From Lujinxingiaceae bacterium (GTDB lineage: Bacteria; Myxococcota_A; Bradymonadia; Bradymonadales; Bradymonadaceae): 39,781 nucleotides of DNA. Below, in pieces: positions 18,676 to 37,192 of this stretch. A program made the translations under genes and the position numbers. Every line of letters begins with the position of its first letter. Positions within the stretch are counted from its first letter, which is position 1. The stretch covers positions 1 through 39,781 of the forward strand of contig JACCWM010000172.1 in the NCBI GenBank assembly GCA_013697635.1. The letters are read 5' to 3'. Under the pieces are notes generated by a model. The model saw nothing but the letters and a program-made list of their open reading frames with translations. It was not told where the DNA came from and made no database searches.

Positions 18676-19731
18676 CTATTGGGGGAAGTACTGGCGCGTG
18701 CCGTTGGCGATGCGGACCAGGGCCAGCATCAGGGGTACTTCAACAAGCACGCCGACGACGGTGACCAGGGCGGCACCCGAGTGCAGGCCGAAGAGCACGA
18801 TCGCTGCGGCGACGGCGAGCTCGAAGAAATTGCTCGAGCCGATCAGGGCGGCGGGGGCGGCGATGCAGTGGCGCACCTTCCAGAGCTTCGCCCAGCCGTA
18901 CGCGAGCACGAAGATAAAGACCGTTTGGATGACCAGCGGAATGGCGATCAATCCAATATGCAGCGGGTTGTCGAGGATCACCTCGCCTTGAAACGAGAAG
19001 AGCAAGACGAGGGTGGCGAGCAGGCCGATCATGGTGACCGGGCCAAAGAGCGGCAAGAAATCGTGGGTAAACCAGTGCAGCCCGCGGCGTTTGATCAGCG
19101 TGTTGCGCACCAAAAAGCCGGCGAGCAACGGGATGACGATGTAGAGCACCACCGAGAGCATTACGGTCTGCCAGGGCACGATGATGTCGCCAATGCCCAG
19201 CAGCAAAATCACGATCGGGGCAAAGGCAAAGAGCATGATCAGGTCGTTGATCGCCACCTGCACCAGCGTGTAGGCAGCGTCGCCCTTGGTCAGGTAGCTC
19301 CACACAAAGACCATGGCCGTGCACGGCGCGGCGCCAAGCAGCACTGCGCCGGCCAGATACTGGGTTTGCAGCTCCGGGGTGATGAAGGGCTCAAAGACCA
19401 CGCTAAAGAAGAACCACGCGATGGCGAACATCGAGAAGGGCTTGATGAGCCAGTTCACCACGAGCGTGATCGTCAGGCCCTTGGGCTCCTTGCGCACACC
19501 CAAAATGCTCTTGAAGTCGATCTGCAGCATCATGGGAAAAATCATCACCCAGATCAGCACAGCGATCGGCAGGTTGACCTCGGCATAGCTGATCTTGCCC
19601 AGAATATTGGGCACGGCCGGGATCAATTGGCCGATCGCCACGCCGGCGACGATGCACAGCGCCACCCAGACGGTCAGATAACGCGCAAAAAAGCTGATGT
19701 CGTTGTTGGCGCCGTCGTGCTCGGTCGTCAT
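18676..19731 (-). CDS. acr3: Arsenite efflux permease, Acr3 family
   Basis: A 351-residue inner-membrane transporter with about ten helices, of the Acr3 branch of the BART superfamily, that exports arsenite. It carries the Acr3 block LLGAAPCTAMVFVWSYLTKG with the conserved C137, and the late-helix glutamate E331 in VEVPLMLALV, both positions important in characterised Acr3 proteins. The motif IGSSNFFELAVAAAI is typical. It follows arsR by 18 bp on the same strand and is certainly in its operon. The start at 19731 gives a short cytoplasmic N-terminus before the first helix. Confidence 0.96.
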   Translation of the reverse strand: MTTEHDGANNDISFFARYLTVWVALCIVAGVAIGQLIPAVPNILGKISYAEVNLPIAVLIWVMIFPMMLQIDFKSILGVRKEPKGLTITLVVNWLIKPFSMFAIAWFFFSVVFEPFITPELQTQYLAGAVLLGAAPCTAMVFVWSYLTKGDAAYTLVQVAINDLIMLFAFAPIVILLLGIGDIIVPWQTVMLSVVLYIVIPLLAGFLVRNTLIKRRGLHWFTHDFLPLFGPVTMIGLLATLVLLFSFQGEVILDNPLHIGLIAIPLVIQTVFIFVLAYGWAKLWKVRHCIAAPAALIGSSNFFELAVAAAIVLFGLHSGAALVTVVGVLVEVPLMLALVRIANGTRQYFPQ

Positions 19732-19749
19732 CTCGATTTCCTGGCCAGA

Positions 19750-20088
19750 TCATTTCAACAATTGCGTCAGTGCTTTGAAGTGCGCGATCGCGGCCGGCTC
19801 AATGCAGTAACAGACCCTGGGGCCGTCAACCTCGCCGCGGATCAGGCCAGCGGCCTTGAGCTGCTTCAAGTGCTGCGAGACCGTCGACTGGGCGAGCGGC
19901 AACTCCTCGACAATCTCGCCGCACATGCAGCCGTCTTTCTTGAGCAAGATTTGCAGGATCGCCACGCGGGCCGGATGGCCCAGGGCTTTGGCATAGGTGG
20001 CAAATTGCTCGGCGTCGAGGACCTCGGGTTGATCGCGTCCGTCGAGCTCGCTCGGGGGGCCACAGCAGGTGTTTATTTCGGTGCTCAT
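19750..20088 (-). CDS. arsR: Arsenic-responsive repressor ArsR
   Basis: A 112-residue winged-helix repressor of the ArsR/SmtB family. The recognition region reads [20 protein letters not shown] with the metal-site pair C54-M-C56 just before it, the classic arsenite-sensing arrangement. Further Cys pairs sit at the N-terminus (C8, C9) and in VCYC (C93, C95). The ATG at 20088 has GGAG six bases upstream. A longer frame to 20121 is rejected because it would begin inside the operator and upstream of the predicted transcription start. It heads the arsR-acr3 operon and is divergent from arsA. Confidence 0.95.
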
Positions 20089-20119
20089 TCTATGCTCCAT
20101 CGTTTCCCTTGAATCGCTC

Positions 20120-20135
20120 ATCGCAGATAGGCGAT
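20120..20135 (-). promoter_or_regulatory. ArsR operator 1 (arsR-acr3 side)
   Basis: On the minus strand the site reads ATCGCCTATCTGCGAT, a perfect 5-bp dyad with a six-base centre. It covers the -10 box of the arsR promoter. Extended to 25 bp (20112-20136) it matches 19 of 25 positions of the second site in inverted orientation. Binding by ArsR is inference. Confidence 0.65.
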
Positions 20136-20152
20136 TTAGTAACGGCAGTCAA
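20124..20152 (-). promoter_or_regulatory. arsR promoter
   Basis: TTGACT (20147-20152) and TATCTG (20124-20129) on the minus strand are spaced by 17 bp, a sigma70-like pair with a near-consensus -35. The predicted start near 20117 leaves a leader of about 29 bases before the ATG at 20088. Confidence 0.55.
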
Positions 20153-20196
20153 CCACGAAATCTTCCAAATGTGCGGGAAGCGATTTCAATGAAGTC

Positions 20197-20225
20197 TTGT
20201 TTTTTAGCGGTCAATCGTCTAATTG
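20197..20225 (+). promoter_or_regulatory. arsA promoter
   Basis: TTGTTT (20197-20202) with TAATTG (20220-20225) 17 bp on repeats the geometry of the arsR promoter: thirteen bases separate TTG from the operator in both. An overlapping TCTAAT (20218-20223) is a better -10 but sits 15 bp from the -35. Either way the -10 lies in the operator. Confidence 0.45.
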
Positions 20226-20229
20226 CGAT
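20214..20229 (+). promoter_or_regulatory. ArsR operator 2 (arsA-arsC side)
   Basis: The plus strand reads ATCGTCTAATTGCGAT, the same dyad as operator 1 with changes mainly in the centre; shared core ATCGYCTAWYTGCGAT. The two sites point away from each other with centres about 94 bp apart, one per divergent promoter. Confidence 0.62.
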
Positions 20230-20302
20230 AGTCGATTTAGGCTCATCGGCGCGTAGGGCGGCCGATGAAAGCGTCAAACAAATACTTCAAGCCAGGAAGC
20301 TC

Positions 20303-22063
20303 ATGATCAACAGCCTGACTCGCCCGACACGGTTTCTTTTTTTTACAGGCAAAGGTGGCGTGGGCAAGACCTCGGCGGCTTGCGCCGAGGCGATCGCGCT
20401 GGCCGAGCAGGGCAAGCGGGTGTTGATCGTGAGCACCGATCCGGCGTCGAATCTCGATTCTGTGCTTGGAACCAAGCTTGCGGGTATGGCCACGCCGATC
20501 GTGGGCGTCGAGGGCTTGTTCGGGCTGAACATCGACCCGGAGGCGTCAGCCCAGGCTTATCGCGAGCGGGTGGCCGGGCCCTATCGCGACGTGCTGCCGG
20601 CCGACTCGGTCGCCGCGATCGAGGAGCAGCTCTCCGGGGCCTGCACGGTCGAGATCGCCGCCTTTGACGAGTTCACAGGTCTGATGAGCAAGCAGAGCAC
20701 GGCCGAGTCGTTCGACCACGTGATCTTTGATACTGCGCCCACGGGCCATACTCTGCGCTTGTTACAGCTGCCGGCGGCCTGGTCGAGCTTTATCGAGAGC
20801 AACGCGGGCGGCGCGTCGTGTTTGGGGCCACTGTCGGGGCTCAAGAACCAACAGGCGCGCTATGCGGAGGCCTTGGCGGTGCTCGGCGATGGCGAGCAGA
20901 CAACGCTGGTGTTGGTGACGCGCCCGGAGCTTGGTGCCTTAGCCGAGGCCGAGCGCACCCGCGCCGAGTTGACCAAGCAGGGCATTGCCAATCAGTTTTT
21001 GATCGTCAACGGAGTTTTTCGGGCCAGCGACCGCGACGACGAGGTGGCCATGCAGATGCAAACGCGCAGCAGGGCCTCTTTGGAAGCGATGAGCGAGGGT
21101 CTTCGAGCCTTGCCCTCGCTTGTGGTGCCGCTGAAATCCTACAATGTCGTGGGGCTCGAGGCCTTGCGTGACTTTTTCAGCGCCGAGGTGGGCTCGACCG
21201 CGGGCGTCGCCGAGCAGACGCGCGTGGTCGCCGAGCTCCCCCGGCTGGTCAAACTCGCGGACGAGGTCGAAGCGGCAGGCCATGGGCTGGTGATGTTCAT
21301 GGGGAAGGGCGGTGTGGGCAAGACCACGATGGCCGCGGCGTTTGCCGTCGAGCTCGCCAGCCGCGGACACCACGTGCATCTGACGACCACCGATCCGGCC
21401 GCGCACATCGAGGGCACGCTGCAACAGGAGGTGGAGAATTTGCGGGTCAGCCGCATCGATCCCCAGGCCGAGACCGAGGCCTATCGCCAGAAGGTGATCG
21501 AGCGCTCACGCGAGGGCCTCGACGCCGAGGGCCTCGCGCTGCTCGAAGAAGATCTGCGCTCGCCATGCACCGAGGAGGTGGCAGTGTTTCACGCCTTCTC
21601 GCGTGTCGTCTTCTCGGCCAAGCGCGAGATCGTGGTCGTCGACACGGCGCCCACCGGCCACACGCTCCTGCTCCTGGACGCGACGGGCTCCTACCACCGC
21701 GAGATGTTGCGCCAGCAGCCTGGGCCAGCCGTGCATATCACCACGCCCTTGATGCGCCTTCAGGATCCGGCGCACGCGCGCGTGGTGATCGTGACGCTGG
21801 CCGAGACGACGCCCGTGCAAGAGGCCGCTCATCTGCAGGAGGATTTGCGCCGCGCCGCGATTGAGCCCTACGCCTGGGTGATCAACCGAAGCCTGGCGGC
21901 GACGCCCACCCGCGACCCGCTGCTGCGTGCGCGCGCTCGTGAGGAGGCCGATCAGATCGAGACGATTCGCGCCTACGCCGAGACGATCTTTGTGGTGCCC
22001 TGGTCGGCCGAAGAGCCCCGCGGTGCCGAGAGTCTTCGACGCCTGATCGCTGCCGATAGCTGA
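20303..22063 (+). CDS. arsA: Arsenite-stimulated ATPase ArsA
   Basis: A 586-residue cytoplasmic ATPase with two homologous halves, the usual ArsA length. Each half has a Walker A loop (GKGGVGKT at 16-23 and again near 334) and the DTAPTGHT signature. The metalloid-site cysteines are all present: C114 (GACTVE), C173 (ASCLGP) and C422 (SPCTEE), equivalent to C113, C172 and C422 of the R773 plasmid protein. It would couple ATP hydrolysis to arsenite export, here presumably with Acr3, since no ArsB is in the window; no arsD chaperone gene is present. The ATG at 20303 has AGGAAG just upstream; the longer open frame to 20069 overlaps arsR and the promoters and is rejected. Confidence 0.96.
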   Translation: MINSLTRPTRFLFFTGKGGVGKTSAACAEAIALAEQGKRVLIVSTDPASNLDSVLGTKLAGMATPIVGVEGLFGLNIDPEASAQAYRERVAGPYRDVLPADSVAAIEEQLSGACTVEIAAFDEFTGLMSKQSTAESFDHVIFDTAPTGHTLRLLQLPAAWSSFIESNAGGASCLGPLSGLKNQQARYAEALAVLGDGEQTTLVLVTRPELGALAEAERTRAELTKQGIANQFLIVNGVFRASDRDDEVAMQMQTRSRASLEAMSEGLRALPSLVVPLKSYNVVGLEALRDFFSAEVGSTAGVAEQTRVVAELPRLVKLADEVEAAGHGLVMFMGKGGVGKTTMAAAFAVELASRGHHVHLTTTDPAAHIEGTLQQEVENLRVSRIDPQAETEAYRQKVIERSREGLDAEGLALLEEDLRSPCTEEVAVFHAFSRVVFSAKREIVVVDTAPTGHTLLLLDATGSYHREMLRQQPGPAVHITTPLMRLQDPAHARVVIVTLAETTPVQEAAHLQEDLRRAAIEPYAWVINRSLAATPTRDPLLRARAREEADQIETIRAYAETIFVVPWSAEEPRGAESLRRLIAADS

Positions 22064-22108
22064 GAACGCTGAGCAGGATTATTTGTTTTTCATCACGGAG
22101 TTAAGCGC

Positions 22109-22534
<426 letters not shown>

Positions 22535-22646: not shown

Positions 22647-23570
22647 TTGAGCCAGTTAGTACACATTCCTCGCCCAAGCGCCTGTCCTCGCCGCATACAA
22701 AGAGCGGCGCGCCGGGCCGTGCAGCGAGCGGGCGGACGCGATCTGACGGCCGCTGACCTCAGCGCCGACATGGGCGTGCCCCTCGAACTGGTCGACAACG
22801 CTCTTCAGGCGCTAGCCAGCCAACTGCCTGCTCGTATCCGTGTCACCGAGCAGGGCGTGATCATCTACACGTTCTCACACGCGCGGGCGCTGTCGCGATG
22901 GCGAAAAAATTGGTTGCTCGACAAGCTGCTTCGCTTGGGCGAACGCTACGCCCAGTCGCTGCTCGCCATGGCCACGTTGCTGCTCATCCCGCTGCTTTTG
23001 GGTGGGCTGCTCGGCAATCTACTCTCGCCATGGCAAGCACTCGAGCTCTTCCCGCAGTCCATGGCTCGTAATTTCCTCGCGATTTTCGGCTTTTGGGCGA
23101 CGTTTCTTGCCCTGGGCGTTTTGGCCTTGGTGGCGATTGGAACCATGCAGCTCTTGATGCCGCTGCTGGCCGTGGCCTTCATTGTGGCGGGTACGGCGCT
23201 TCCCCTGTATTGGATCATCAAGATCTTCTCGAGCGGTCCGCTTCATGTGGCGATTTTGGTGCTGCCATTTGTATCGATCTTGTTTGGCCTCGTGCCCATC
23301 GGCGTCTGGTTGGGCAAGTCGTGGTGGGCGTTCTTTGGTTCGCTCATTCGATCTGGCCAGGCGGGCTGGGCGAGAATGGTGCTGAACGGGCTTGTCGAGC
23401 TCGCCGTCGGCCCCTCGCTGCTCAATGGGCGGCCCAGGGTTTCGGCTGCCGAGTGGGGCGATCTGATCGTGCTGCGCTCAGGTATCTTGACGATCGGCGA
23501 CGTCGTCGCCTTTCTCGGTTGCTCGCGCCAACAGGCAGGAGAGGCCTTGACGGCTTTGCTTTTCACCTAA
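22647..23570 (+). CDS. Winged-helix/multi-pass membrane protein, N-terminal part ended by an in-frame TAA
   Basis: A 307-residue product, not recognised by name. Residues about 30-78 form a winged helix (DLSADMGVPLELVDNALQAL, then a wing RIRVTEQGVIIYTF). Four hydrophobic helices follow between about 105 and 235 (SLLAMATLLLIPLLLGGLL, FLAIFGFWATFLALGVLALV, LLMPLLAVAFIVAGTALPLY, AILVLPFVSILFGLVPIGVW). The C-terminus starts a second winged helix (ILTIGDVVAFLGCSRQQAGEAL) that is cut by TAA at 23568-23570; the frame then stays open and supplies the missing wing. It is therefore likely the front half of one 516-residue protein. The TTG at 22647 has no clear ribosome site and an in-frame stop lies just upstream at 22638, so the start is uncertain; a GTG or the ATG near residue 42 are alternatives. 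Confidence 0.75.
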   Translation: MSQLVHIPRPSACPRRIQRAARRAVQRAGGRDLTAADLSADMGVPLELVDNALQALASQLPARIRVTEQGVIIYTFSHARALSRWRKNWLLDKLLRLGERYAQSLLAMATLLLIPLLLGGLLGNLLSPWQALELFPQSMARNFLAIFGFWATFLALGVLALVAIGTMQLLMPLLAVAFIVAGTALPLYWIIKIFSSGPLHVAILVLPFVSILFGLVPIGVWLGKSWWAFFGSLIRSGQAGWARMVLNGLVELAVGPSLLNGRPRVSAAEWGDLIVLRSGILTIGDVVAFLGCSRQQAGEALTALLFT

Positions 23571-23672
23571 GGCGGCGATGTAGTCGTTAGCGATGAGGGC
23601 GTCTTGCTCTTCGATTTCCCCGATCAGATCGAGCAAGTCGGTGAGCACGGCCGGCGCCCGCGCGAGGTAACC

Positions 23673-24197
23673 ATGGCCTATCAAAGCGTCGCGCCGGCGC
23701 GCTATTGGAACGAGCAACGGCGCAAAGACGTCGCGCTTTTCGCGGTGCTCGCGAGCGCCATTTTATGCATCGCGATTCATCCGGCCCTGGTCTTCTTCCC
23801 CGACTTGGCCCATTACAGCGAGCGTGGCGGCGTGGGCGCCGTCTTCCGCCAGGGCCTGGGGCTCTATCTGGTCGTCGCGCTGGCCGCCGTCCATCCCCTT
23901 CGTATCGTGAGCTGGTATCGCGACAGGAGACGCGCACCCTTTCTCCGGCTCATCGAGCAGGCCTATGTCTCGACGGGCGCCGTTCAGGTCGATCAAGCTA
24001 CCAACAACTTCGATCTGGCCGCGCTCGGCGCCGACGTCGTCCTGGCCGACGCTGGTAAACAGGAATCGATGATGGTGGTCTTCCCCGACTTCATCGCGGA
24101 GCGCGCCGCCGCCTACGAACTGCGCGAACCTCGTCGTCGCCAACGTCAATACTCGACCCTTGGCGAGATCGTCTTCGACACCGAATCGGCGCCCTGA
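23673..24197 (+). CDS. Membrane protein, probable C-terminal part of the split winged-helix/membrane gene
   Basis: From the ATG at 23673 this gives 174 residues with two hydrophobic helices (VALFAVLASAILCIAIHPAL and GLGLYLVVALAAVHPLRIVSW) and a soluble tail with MMVVFPDFIAERAA. The frame is open all the way back to the TAA at 23568 and encodes DVVVSDEGVLLFDFPDQI, which completes the second winged helix of the preceding gene. The tail motif VFPDF repeats the wing ending FDFPD, so the full protein has at least two and perhaps three such modules. AGG five bases before the ATG is a weak ribosome site, so separate translation is possible; a TTG at 23604 is an alternative start. Confidence 0.65.
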   Translation: MAYQSVAPARYWNEQRRKDVALFAVLASAILCIAIHPALVFFPDLAHYSERGGVGAVFRQGLGLYLVVALAAVHPLRIVSWYRDRRRAPFLRLIEQAYVSTGAVQVDQATNNFDLAALGADVVLADAGKQESMMVVFPDFIAERAAAYELREPRRRQRQYSTLGEIVFDTESAP

Positions 24198-25473: not shown

Positions 25474-25823
25474 TGTGATGCCTTCTCGGCTTGGACTCGA
25501 TGGTCATCAGAGGCGATGAGCAATCATGCGTGGTTGTGCCTGGACTTGCAACCGTGTGCCATGGTGCGACGACGTCTCGATGACACAGCATTGGCAACGT
25601 GATTTGCGGGGGGCTCGAGCAGCCGAACCAGAGGGTGAAAGTGCAGGTGTTTCAACGCCTTGAAAATTCTCTTGCAGAGCGCGTTGCGCCATGTCATGGA
25701 TGAAATTCTGTCCACTTGTTTTCGAGCACTTCCCCGGTTGAATTCCTTGACGAGTCTCTATGCCTGAAGGCTATCGAAGGTTCTGTTTTTTTGTCGGATT
25801 GAGCACGCTGGGCCAACAGCCTG
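25474..25823. other. 350-bp intergenic region before the propeller pseudogene
   Basis: No gene with a credible start or recognisable product. The first part must carry the promoter of the divergent zinc-ribbon gene. The last part lies where the N-terminus of the propeller protein should be encoded, but in that frame stops occur at 25701 and 25800 and no signal peptide can be read, so the original 5' end is lost or decayed. Confidence 0.5.
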
Positions 25824-28014
25824 TTGGTCGCGCTCGGAACGCCTGACTGGAGGCAAATGCTCGATCGCACGCGGGTGCGCATCATCGATACCTCGGCCGG
25901 CGACGGCTCGATGGTCGCCGGTCGTGAGATCGAGTTGCGGGGCCATGTTTTTTCACCCAAGAACATCAACCTGCACAACGGCGTGCTGCGCGTCGCCTCG
26001 GGTTACAGATACGATGCCGGTTACATCGAGAGCTTCGATGTACGTGGCAAGGCCAACATCAAAGCCATCAACAGGGTGAACTTTGGATATGGCGAGGCCT
26101 TCAGCTTCAGATTGTTTCAAGCCAACAGGGCGTTTTTCAAGTCGGCTGACACGACGCTTCCCCTGTTCGCTTTCGACATCACCGATGAGGGCGAGATCAC
26201 CGAGATGACCGGGACCGCGGCAATCGGCGATGATCGCGTACACAGCGTGTTTGACGCCGAGCGCTTGATCGGCCTCGCCGCCAGCGGCGCCTTCACCCCA
26301 AACGCAGCACTGACCGTGAGTCTCTACGACATAAGTGGTCTGGGCTCGCCTGAGCCTCTCATCGTCAAACTCGATAGCGCGCGGCGTCCACTGTGGCAAG
26401 TGGATCAGTGGCACGTCAGTCAGTGGTTCGAGAAGGATGCTGTCGTGCTAGAGGCAGCCGTTGTGGCGCGCGACGGCTTTGAGGTCGAAGAGACGGGCCT
26501 TCTCTTGGTGCCCTTTTTCGGCAACAACAAGGTGACCGGCGTGGAGGAGAGCGCGGCACAGATCTTCACTTTTTCAAAGGACACGCTCACCGCGCGCGGG
26601 GTGATCGTCCACAGGACGGGAGGACTGTCGCACCGATTACTTGTCGCAGGCGATGTGGCGACGAGTCTGTCGCCGACCAATCTCTCGATTCACACGCTGG
26701 CCGATCTCGACGCACCGCGAGCAGAGAGCAGCCTGGAGCTTGTTCCCATCTACACGGATCTGATCAACTTCGGCTCTCACCGTGTGCGTGTCATGCCGCC
26801 CAATTACAGGTACCCCTACTCGGGGCTTGGGCCGAAGATACTCGAGATCATCGAGGCCACGGACCACCCGGATCACGCCCCACCTGTCGCCACGCTCGAG
26901 GTTGACGCACTATCAAATTGCACCGTTGGTCTTGGATCACGGCCTGGTCTTCGTCGAGCAGGTGCGTCGCGCGGGCTATCAAGGCACGTTGGAGACGTGC
27001 ACCACGAGCGCTGTGCCGAACACTGGCTGCGACCCCGTCGAAGACTCCGAGGCCGGCCCCTCATGCTGGACGACCATCGGCGAAGTGCGTTGCCAACGCC
27101 TCGACGAGGGGCCCGAGGCATGTCACGGCGCCATTGAACATTGCCGTTGGAACAACCTTGGCGGCCAATGCGAAGCGGTCGCGGTGGGCGAGCTCGAAAC
27201 GACTCACGCCTGTCACAAGGCCCAGTTGGCACGTGAGTGGTCTCAGTACCGCTTTCGCGTGCTCGATCTGAGCTCACCGACCTCGCCAGTGTTGCGCGAG
27301 GCGCTCGATATGCCCTCCCAGGATGAAGGCGTCGATGTGCTGGCCCGTGGTAGCTCGCTATACTACGCGTACAAGCGGCCTGCCGAGGTGGAGGGCGACG
27401 GGCGCGCCTTCGTGCGCTACTTCATCAAGCAGATCGACTTGAGCGAGGCGTCGCCTTTATTTGGGCCCGAGATCAACGTGGCCGGCCGCCTGCTCGCGCT
27501 CGAGGGCGACGTCGTCTACACACGGGGCGAGGTCTACGGCGAGAAGTTTGTCGAGACCTTCGTTGCCCGGGCTCGCATCGATGGGGAGCGAGCCGTCCTC
27601 GAGGGCAGTCGACACTTTCGCGGCCGCCAGGTGCGATTGGTCGGCAGCGACCCTTCTGGCTTGATGCTTGTGACCCATGGCCCGCACCCTTCCTTCTTTG
27701 ATGGGTGGCAAGCGCCCGTCGATTCTCCCGTTCAACTCTCCGTGCTCGACGTCTCGGACGCAGCCTTTGGAGAACATGCCCGTATCGGCATCCCGTACCT
27801 GGACAAGTTGCACCAGGCGAGCGCCGGGCGAGCCGTGTTTGGAGAGGCCGACGAAAACGGCGACGGCTTGGTCGTCTTCGACACGAGCGACCCGAAGAAT
27901 CCCTATCCCAAACACTATTTTCCGACCCATGGCTGGCACGGCCACGCCATCTTTGATGGCGACGACATCTTCGAGGTCGCCGGCGCGTACGGGATCTCCC
28001 GATTCTCCTTGTAA
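25824..28014 (+). pseudogene. Beta-propeller domain protein, N-terminus missing and frameshifted
   Basis: Two overlapping reading frames encode one protein of the secreted beta-propeller family. The first runs from about 25824 and makes sense to PPVATLEVDA near 26909; the second continues from YQIAPLVLDHGLVFVEQV at 26911 to the stop at 28014. A one-base gain (or two-base loss) near 26905-26911 separates them. Blades are visible as repeated strand patterns (GVLRVASGYRY, YIESFDVRGKANIKAI, FRVLDLSSPTSPV, LSVLDVSDA, LVVFDTSDPKNPYPKHYF). The start is also defective: a stop lies at 25800 and there is no signal peptide. An insert at about 26990-27210 carries eight Cys. Sequencing error at the junction could explain the shift but not the missing N-terminus. 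Confidence 0.8.
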
Positions 28015-33519: not shown

Positions 33520-35628
33520 ATGACCACTGAACTTGCGATTCCCGCGATTCGTTACCCGGCCGTCTTTTGCACCAGCCATATCGTCGGCGTCGTCGTGCAC
33601 GCGCGCGGGGCCGTGGTGACCCGGCGCGTCGAGGTCGTGGCCGGGGTCGCCACGGGCGATGTCGAGTGCATCGTGCCCCAGATTACGCCGGGCGCCGATC
33701 CGGGCAGCGCACGGGTGATCTTGCCGTCGGGCGCGCGGCGTCTGGTGAGTCTGCGCTCGTCGTTGCACGTACCGGAGCAGACGGGGGCGCGTGGCGCGAG
33801 TGTCGAGCGTGTGCGCCTGCTGGCGGCCGCGCTCAAGCGTTGCGAGGACGAGCACGGGGAGGCGCGCGCACGCGAGGAGGCGCTGGCGAGCTGGCAGGCC
33901 GAACCCAAAGGCAAAAAGGCCCTCGAGCTGCTCGGGCCGGCAGCGCGCGCGCGTGCGGCGCTCGACATCACCGCCGTGGTGCAGGCACGGTTGAACCAGC
34001 TCGTGGCGCGGCGCTTCGAGCTCGAAGAGCGGATGCGCGAGCTGCGCCAGCAAATCGAGGCGGCTCAGCTCGACGACCAGCAAAGCTCCGATGAGCAGCG
34101 CATGGGCGAGGGCCATCCCAGCTTGCAGTTCATCGTGCGCTTTGGTGGTGAGGGCGAGCTCGAGCACTTCGAGCTGAGCTACGTGGTCGAGGCGGCGCAG
34201 TGGTGGCCGCTGTACAGCCTGCACTTGAGCGAGGGTGGCGCGCGTGCCGAGGTGGCGATCGAGGCGCTCGTCGCCCAGTGCAGCGGCGAGGATTGGAGCG
34301 AGGTGGCGATCGCCTTGTCGACGGCCACCCTGGCCTATGACGCACGGCTGCCAAAGCTAGCGTCGATGCGCCTTGGTCGCGCCCAAGGCGTGCGCAGCAA
34401 GGGATACCGTGAAGCGCCGGCAGGGCTGGACAAACTCTTTGTCAATTACGACAGTGCGCTCGAGGCGCTCGATCCCTACCACCGCAGCCGCACGCTGGGC
34501 GCAGACTATTCGTCGCAAGGCCCCCCTCCAACGTCGGCGCAAATGAAGCGGTCCGCGCCGAGGCCGTCGGCGGCGCCGATGCCCGAGCTGGCGAGCTTTG
34601 AACTCGAGGACGGCGCATTTGATGAGATGGAGAGCGCAGGGAGTGCGATGGAGCACGTCTCGCGCTCAGCGATGGCGCCGTCAGCGAGCTTCGGGGCTCC
34701 GCCTTCACCGGCCAAACGACGCAGCATGGCCGCCGCCGCTCCAGGCAGCGGCGGCGGCGCTTGGCAGTCGCGCTCTGAGCCAGAAGTGCCAGGCGCGATC
34801 GAGCCGGCCGACGCCTGGCTCGACTTCGACTCGCTCGTCTTGGGCGGCGTGCAAAGCGCCAACCGCGGCCGGCTGCGCGTGCGAGCAGGCGCAGCCGCTG
34901 CGGTGGCGGGTGATATCTGGTTGAGCGAAGCGCAGGCGCAGGCCTCGCGCCAGAGGCTCGACGAGGCCCTGGCGTCGAGCGGCTCGTTTGACTATCGCTA
35001 TGAGACCGATGCGCGCGTCGATGTGCCCTCCGATGCGCGCGCGCATCGCATTCAAGTCACGCGCGCCGAGGCCAAAAGCGCGCTGTTCTGGCGCGCGGTT
35101 CCCCGTCAAGATGCCGCCGTCTACCGCGAGGCGCGGCTGACCAATCCGTTCTCCTCGCCGCTCTTGACCAGCCAGATGAGCGTCTATGTCGATGGGCGTT
35201 TTCTGGCCGAGACGCGCCTGGAGAAGGTCGACGCGGGCGCCCAGATTCGGGTTGGACTGGGCGTGGATGAGCGCATCCGGGTGGTGCGAAACGCGCGCAT
35301 GAAAGAGGAGTCCTCCGGGCTTTTGGGTGGCAAGCGCGCGCTGGTGCACGAGGTCGACATGGAGTTTCGATCGAGCCTGGGCTTTTTGGCCGAGGTCGAG
35401 GTGATTGACCGCATTCCGGTGACCGACGACGCCAACGTTCAAGTGGAGATGATCGAGGGTCAGCCGGCGTCTGCGCCCTACGATCAAAAAGAATACGACG
35501 CGCCCGTGCGGGGCGGCAGGCGCTGGAAGCTCGTGCTCAAGCCGGGCGCGACATCGACGATTCGCTATGGTTACCGCATCGTCTTGCGTGCCAAGGACGA
35601 GCTTTGGGGAGGAAATCGCCGTGAGTGA
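33520..35628 (+). CDS. DUF4139 (mucoidy inhibitor MuiA-like) protein, first copy
   Basis: A 702-residue protein without signal peptide. Residues 1-90 are a DUF4140-like beta domain (VVVHARGAVVTRRVEV), then a coiled coil of about 100 residues (ELEERMRELRQQIEAAQL). From about 205 begins DUF4139, marked by LSYVVEAAQWWPLYSLHL and SGEDWSEVAIALSTATL. A low-complexity Ala/Pro/Ser insert of roughly 120 residues splits it (about 310-430). It resumes with FWRAVPRQDAAVYREARLTN, VDGRFLAETRLEKVDAGAQI and ends with VLKPGATSTIRYGYRI. Function of the family is poorly known. It overlaps the next gene by eight bases. Confidence 0.9.
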   Translation: MTTELAIPAIRYPAVFCTSHIVGVVVHARGAVVTRRVEVVAGVATGDVECIVPQITPGADPGSARVILPSGARRLVSLRSSLHVPEQTGARGASVERVRLLAAALKRCEDEHGEARAREEALASWQAEPKGKKALELLGPAARARAALDITAVVQARLNQLVARRFELEERMRELRQQIEAAQLDDQQSSDEQRMGEGHPSLQFIVRFGGEGELEHFELSYVVEAAQWWPLYSLHLSEGGARAEVAIEALVAQCSGEDWSEVAIALSTATLAYDARLPKLASMRLGRAQGVRSKGYREAPAGLDKLFVNYDSALEALDPYHRSRTLGADYSSQGPPPTSAQMKRSAPRPSAAPMPELASFELEDGAFDEMESAGSAMEHVSRSAMAPSASFGAPPSPAKRRSMAAAAPGSGGGAWQSRSEPEVPGAIEPADAWLDFDSLVLGGVQSANRGRLRVRAGAAAAVAGDIWLSEAQAQASRQRLDEALASSGSFDYRYETDARVDVPSDARAHRIQVTRAEAKSALFWRAVPRQDAAVYREARLTNPFSSPLLTSQMSVYVDGRFLAETRLEKVDAGAQIRVGLGVDERIRVVRNARMKEESSGLLGGKRALVHEVDMEFRSSLGFLAEVEVIDRIPVTDDANVQVEMIEGQPASAPYDQKEYDAPVRGGRRWKLVLKPGATSTIRYGYRIVLRAKDELWGGNRRE

Positions 35629-37192
35629 GAAGACGGGAGTCGAAGTTTCGAGCCGTGCGCAGGCGGTGACCTTCTATGAGGACCGCGCTCAGGTCGTGCG
35701 CAGCGCGCGCGTTGAACTCGGGCTGGGCAGCCACAACGTCGTGATCGAGGGCGTCACCGTGCTCGTCGACGATCCCAGCCTGGGCGTTCGCGCGCGTTTG
35801 GTTGGAGCGCCCGGAGCCGAGGCGGTGGCGGTTTCGGCGGCGCGCGTTCGGCGCATGGTGCGTATGGTCAACGAGATGAGTTCTGGCGAGGTCGATGCGA
35901 TCGAGCTGCGCGAGCGCGAGTGCGAGGGGCAGGTGCGCCGGGCAAAGATGGCGCTCAAGATGGTCAAGCTCGAGCGCGCGCGGCTTCGACAGCTCGAGAA
36001 GCGACTGCTCAAGGAGGCGCGCTACGTTCCGAGCGCCGAGGCGTCCAAGCCGGCCGACTGGGACGATGCCTTCGCCCAGCTCGAGGCCGCGATCGCTAAA
36101 ACCTACGAGAGCGCGGACGCAGCCAGAGAGGCCATCGGCGAGGCCACGCGCGCCCATGAGCGCGCCCAGCTCCTGCTCGATCAGGCGCGCGCCCGACATC
36201 CCGAATACCTGGCCTTGATCGAAGTGCAGCTCGAGGTGACGACGGGCGGCACCGTCGAGCTCGAGCTGGACTATTTTACGCCGTGCGCGCTGTGGCGGCC
36301 GTCGCATCTGGCTCGCCTGGTGCGCGAGCCCATGGCGAGGCTCGAGATTGGGACGCTGGCCACCGTCTGGCAGGCCACGGGCGAGCAGTGGGAGGGTGTG
36401 ACGTGCCGCTTCTCGACGGCGCGTGTGGGCAAGGCGGCCGAGCCGCCGCGCCTTGACGACGACGTGATCTCGGCTCGCGCCAAGAGCGACGAGGAGCGGC
36501 GCGTGGTCAACGTCGAGGCGCGCGATTTGACGATTGGCTCGACGTACGTGGGTGGTGCGCGCGCGGTCGATGAGATGCCTGGCGTCGACGATGGTGGCGA
36601 GCCGCTTTGCTTCGAGGCCTCGGGGCCGGTGACGATTCCAAGCAACGGAGAGCCGTTTCGCGTGGAAATCTCGGTCACCGAGCTTGCCTGCGAGGTCGAG
36701 CGCGTGGCCTTTGCCGAGCTCAGCGGCGTGCCCCACCTGCGCGCTCGGGCGACCTGGAAGGGTGAGCATGCGCTGCTGGCGGGCCCGGTCGCGCTGATGC
36801 GTGAGGGCGAGTTCGCCGGGCGATCGAGCATCGAGTTCGTCGGTGTCGGCGAGGCCTTTGAGATAGGCTTTGGCGTCGAGAGCGCGCTTCGGGTATCGCG
36901 CCGGGTTGACGACAAACACGAGACGACCAAGATTACGGGCAAGAATCTACTCACGCGTACGGTCAATTTGTTCGTGAGCAACTTGAGCGGCGAGCCCAAG
37001 CAGCTCGAACTCCTTGAGCGCATCCCGGTCAGCGAGATCGACGATGTCGTGATCAACGTGCTCGATGATGGCTACCGCCCCGACACCGACGGTTTTGTGC
37101 ACATCAAGCTCAAGCTCGCCGCCCGCGAGACTCTGACGCGCACGTTTCGCTACCGCGTGGAGTATGCGAGCAACGTCAACTTGCGCCTGTGA
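35621..37192 (+). CDS. DUF4139 (MuiA-like) protein, second copy
   Basis: A 523-residue paralogue of the preceding protein without the low-complexity insert. A beta domain (AVTFYEDRAQVVRSARVEL) is followed by a coiled coil (about 75-195) and DUF4139 with LDYFTPCALWRPSHLARL and GEQWEGVTCRFSTARVG, ending LAARETLTRTFRYRVEY. The start is GTG at 35621 with a strong GGAGGA seven bases upstream, inside the end of the previous gene; the longer frame to 35567 is rejected. Its own stop overlaps the next start by four bases, so the three genes are translationally linked. Possibly the two copies form a heteromer (inference). Confidence 0.9.
   Translation: MSEKTGVEVSSRAQAVTFYEDRAQVVRSARVELGLGSHNVVIEGVTVLVDDPSLGVRARLVGAPGAEAVAVSAARVRRMVRMVNEMSSGEVDAIELRERECEGQVRRAKMALKMVKLERARLRQLEKRLLKEARYVPSAEASKPADWDDAFAQLEAAIAKTYESADAAREAIGEATRAHERAQLLLDQARARHPEYLALIEVQLEVTTGGTVELELDYFTPCALWRPSHLARLVREPMARLEIGTLATVWQATGEQWEGVTCRFSTARVGKAAEPPRLDDDVISARAKSDEERRVVNVEARDLTIGSTYVGGARAVDEMPGVDDGGEPLCFEASGPVTIPSNGEPFRVEISVTELACEVERVAFAELSGVPHLRARATWKGEHALLAGPVALMREGEFAGRSSIEFVGVGEAFEIGFGVESALRVSRRVDDKHETTKITGKNLLTRTVNLFVSNLSGEPKQLELLERIPVSEIDDVVINVLDDGYRPDTDGFVHIKLKLAARETLTRTFRYRVEYASNVNLRL

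Follow-up and report, generated by a model that had tools for sequence, protein, structure and literature searches.

A single in-frame TAA, probably a recent nonsense mutation, interrupts a winged-helix/membrane protein gene in a Lujinxingiaceae bacterium

We analyzed a 39,781-nucleotide window, a whole contig of a Lujinxingiaceae genome, and found a gene for a winged-helix/membrane protein interrupted by one in-frame stop codon. The interruption is probably a recent nonsense mutation, or a polymorphism still segregating, in a divergent paralogue of the gene. A preliminary description of the sequence had left three origins open: a recent nonsense change, programmed readthrough and a sequencing error. 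The first was best supported, by the sense codon in relatives, their organization as single genes and the otherwise intact frame. The finding is real but ordinary, the nonsense mutation being of a known and routine kind.

The interrupted frame runs on the forward strand from a TTG at 22647 to a TGA ending at 24197 and contains only one internal stop, a TAA at 23568–23570, with 307 residues upstream and 208 codons downstream in the same phase (516 positions including the stop). The initial reading of one frame split by a single TAA was thereby borne out. The TTG at 22647 is a credible start, as the N-terminus aligns with relatives. In the upstream open frame (22647–23570, forward strand), which ends at the TAA, a winged helix at the N-terminus is followed by about four membrane helices and by the helical part of a second winged helix; the downstream open frame (23571–24197, forward strand) supplies the wing belonging to that second module, then about two membrane helices and a degenerate third wing-type module. 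The equal spacing noted earlier between the two winged helices also holds: ALQAL, ten residues and TEQGVIIYTF in the first correspond to ALTAL, ten positions including the stop and SDEGVLLFDF in the second. Independently of this spacing, relatives align without gaps across the TAA, confirming that the stop replaces one residue and that no bases were lost. A frameshift or indel at 23568–23570 was ruled out, the length being unchanged in comparison with relatives.

For the relatives, we searched with the 516-position sequence carrying an X at the stop. Two uninterrupted genes matched across both halves, L003 (query positions 4–500, E 5e-28) and L004 (5–466, E 3e-17), and many further proteins, mostly of ~480–690 aa and none with an internal stop, matched in part. 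All 29 relatives examined were single uninterrupted genes; orthologues existing as two separate genes, which the preliminary description had named as the observation that would speak against a split gene, were looked for and none was found. In the alignment of the 29 relatives, the stop column contained Phe 19 times, Tyr eight times, and Thr and His once each, with no stop. The orthologue comparison proposed earlier thus returned a sense codon in every relative and Tyr or Phe in 27. The five nearest members of the subfamily (L003, L004, L005, L006 and L029) read YGGD at the site, and the Tyr is encoded by TAC or TAT in these five as well as in L031, a paralogue in the same genome. Because all relatives are uninterrupted and the column is Tyr/Phe, the ancestral state is a single gene with an aromatic codon, most likely Tyr, at the stop position.

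The nearest relatives are only ~20–30% identical to the interrupted gene. We found no closer orthologue in the genus, the family, the class (57 genomes) or the phylum sample (379 genomes), and no gene order in common with the relatives beyond the gene itself. The paralogue L031 (G000:C39), an intact canonical member, persists elsewhere in the same genome; it directly precedes a frame putatively resembling a CDP-alcohol phosphatidyltransferase, from a reading of the translation by eye.

The coding signal was similar on the two sides of the stop. Codon preference trained on the neighboring genes favored the same frame before and after the TAA, and the third-position GC of the two halves was 0.74 and 0.76. 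The frame kept past the stop, together with two distant relatives matching both halves, is more than a chance arrangement. Conserved columns were retained at 20 of 41 positions before and 16 of 27 after the stop, similar to the values obtained for the relatives by leaving one out at a time, and the tail therefore seems free of visible drift, although the test is weak with relatives this distant. A sense codon in the relatives and a frame otherwise intact, with coding signal on both sides, is the pattern of a young pseudogene. Taken together, the 29 single-gene relatives, the aromatic stop column, and the codon signature and conserved residues continuing past the stop argue that the TAA, as judged from sequence comparison, is a single substitution in one ancestral gene, not an indel and not a trace of two ancestral genes. 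The mutation matters mainly for annotation, where both open frames belong under a single, interrupted gene.

Under the favored explanation, one recent base substitution would have turned a sense codon, most likely for Tyr, into TAA within the second winged helix. With translation expected to end after 307 residues, the truncated product would miss the second module's wing, the final membrane helices and all of the third module, and in this strain the gene has probably lost its function. The TAA is probably genuine and not a consensus error; it is probably also recent, and function is probably abolished. A lone changed codon in an intact gene is equally what an error, a tolerated readthrough or a very young mutation would leave.

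A consensus or sequencing error, with a sense codon in the true genome and an intact gene, is unlikely, and less likely than a nonsense mutation, but it ranks second of the three options, ahead of readthrough. It would agree with the rest of the gene being entirely intact and with the draft state of the genome (6.2 Mb in 213 contigs, the window being contig C197). Against it, internal stops were absent from the 118 protein-kinase domains matched in the same genome, and scanning 354 kb of this genome for codon signature revealed no second convincing in-frame break; these clean results make a high error rate, as well as a changed genetic code, unlikely. The other TAA candidate of the scan, L060, had a strong signal on its own strand and proved to be the ordinary junction of two distinct genes. 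Finally, a base error would not account for the deletions in a broken gene near the interrupted one.

This neighbor, at 25788–28011 on the forward strand and ~2.2 kb downstream, is what remains of a beta-propeller gene. It lacks ~295 N-terminal residues and, near 26910–26930, shows a frame change together with the loss of ~75 residues, at which the coding signal also switches frame. Most of its relatives in this class are single frames of ~1050–1150 aa, and the same genome contains further copies, one an open frame of 1109 aa (G000:C24) and one at a contig end (G000:C126). The remnant is a true deletion/frameshift pseudogene that decayed by deletion rather than through base error. Local gene decay is therefore plausible, which does not prove the same origin for the TAA.

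Elsewhere in the window, an arsenic-resistance-type cluster with divergent genes (18676–22534) lies directly upstream of the interrupted gene, consisting of an SBF-type (SBF/ACR3-like) transporter (18676–19731) and an ArsR-like protein (19750–20121) on the reverse strand, and a double-domain ArsA ATPase (20069–22063) and a low-molecular-weight phosphatase/arsenate-reductase-type (ArsC) protein (22109–22534) on the forward strand. At 33520–37192, two DUF4139/DUF4140 proteins are arranged in tandem with a 62-base overlap.

Programmed or tolerated readthrough, producing the truncated protein and a minor full-length product, is improbable. The tail after the TAA does retain conserved residues and the codon signature, and for some bacterial in-frame stops it has been argued that purifying selection still acts on the gene (PMC7918605). 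The relatives, however, all have an ordinary sense codon at the site: none carries a stop there, as conservation of the stop among orthologues would require, in this set of distant relatives. Nor is the RNA around and downstream of the TAA more stable than shuffled sequences (z 0.07), and no Rfam element was matched around it, so that neither a stimulating structure nor other positive evidence was found for programmed readthrough, the second of the origins first proposed, as the source of the TAA. To our knowledge, the GGC after the TAA makes a context unlike any described for readthrough. It is more improbable still that the stop is tolerated or used to switch a membrane-bound winged-helix protein, the cell making chiefly the 307-residue N-terminal membrane protein and, by readthrough of the TAA, a little of the full-length one. 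Reassignment of the stop codon was ruled out, given the absence of internal stops from the kinase matches.

Two separate functional genes, the second starting by reinitiation at TTG 23604 or later, form the least probable reading: a GAGGG stands 4 nt before this TTG (23604–23606, forward strand), the first possible restart codon after the stop and a weak one on direct reading, but the boundary would split a folded winged helix, parting the wing from the last helix, the relatives are known as one gene only, and the codon signature and homology run without a gap from the first codon past the stop. A restart there would yield a fragment without most of the winged helix, and an origin from two genes was ruled out by the relatives being single genes.

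We modeled the architecture of the protein with the stop read as Tyr. The full-frame model, built on 12 sequences, was of modest confidence (mean pLDDT 62, pTM 0.37) and placed winged helices at ~14–76 and ~267–323 and a third wing-type module at ~430–478, with helical membrane stretches between them; the stop, at position 308, falls in the second winged helix, after its last helix and before its wing. Outside the wing modules, hydropathy picked out about six hydrophobic regions, a number that would suit six membrane helices. Foldseek matches of the protein were mostly to winged-helix proteins and weak (best E 0.04, none below E 0.001). We found no Pfam or NCBIfam match above the curated cut-off and no significant sequence match among solved structures, and a literature search for a suspected plant homologue gave no result. 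The earlier account of a 516-position protein with two or three wing modules around six membrane helices therefore stands, with three modules in the model, while its description as unusual is only partly right: no named model covers the protein, yet it belongs to a recurrent family.

In-frame stops are widespread in bacterial genes, but they generally last no longer than polymorphisms within a population do (Belinky et al. 2021, PMC7918605). The case described here is likewise one nonsense change, with the rest of the gene intact, and would be expected not to last long; the TAA may be polymorphic or fixed. L003 and L004, from two other genomes of the class, resemble the interrupted gene over nearly its full length at 30% identity and read YGGD at the stop site, but they are uninterrupted and have no neighbors in common with it.

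More broadly, the winged-helix/membrane proteins are an unnamed family recurring across Bradymonadia and, more distantly, Cyanobacteria. Judging from these relatives, the genome itself falls within the Bradymonadia lineage (Myxococcota). Canonical members appear in named records of Lujinxingia vulgaris (order Bradymonadales) and several 'Myxococcales' metagenome assemblies. The model of a canonical Lujinxingia member (mean pLDDT 69) has the same layout with fewer membrane helices, so that both models contain three wing-type modules separated by membrane helices. The interrupted copy shares with the canonical L. vulgaris protein (L042) and the paralogue L031 the order of winged helix, membrane helices, winged helix, membrane helices and degenerate third wing, as well as the aromatic column at the second wing. 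It differs in being only ~20% identical to them and in its interruption; the subfamily to which it belongs is divergent and has additional membrane helices in the first half. From the fold, one might guess that the family serves in membrane-anchored sensing or binding through its winged helices. Two cyanobacterial proteins (L049 and L050) similarly combine a winged helix, a membrane part and a second wing-type region but are shorter (430–442 aa) and ~22% identical to the canonical members. A useful by-product of the analysis is this recurrent family of Bradymonadia, which no Pfam or NCBIfam model matched.
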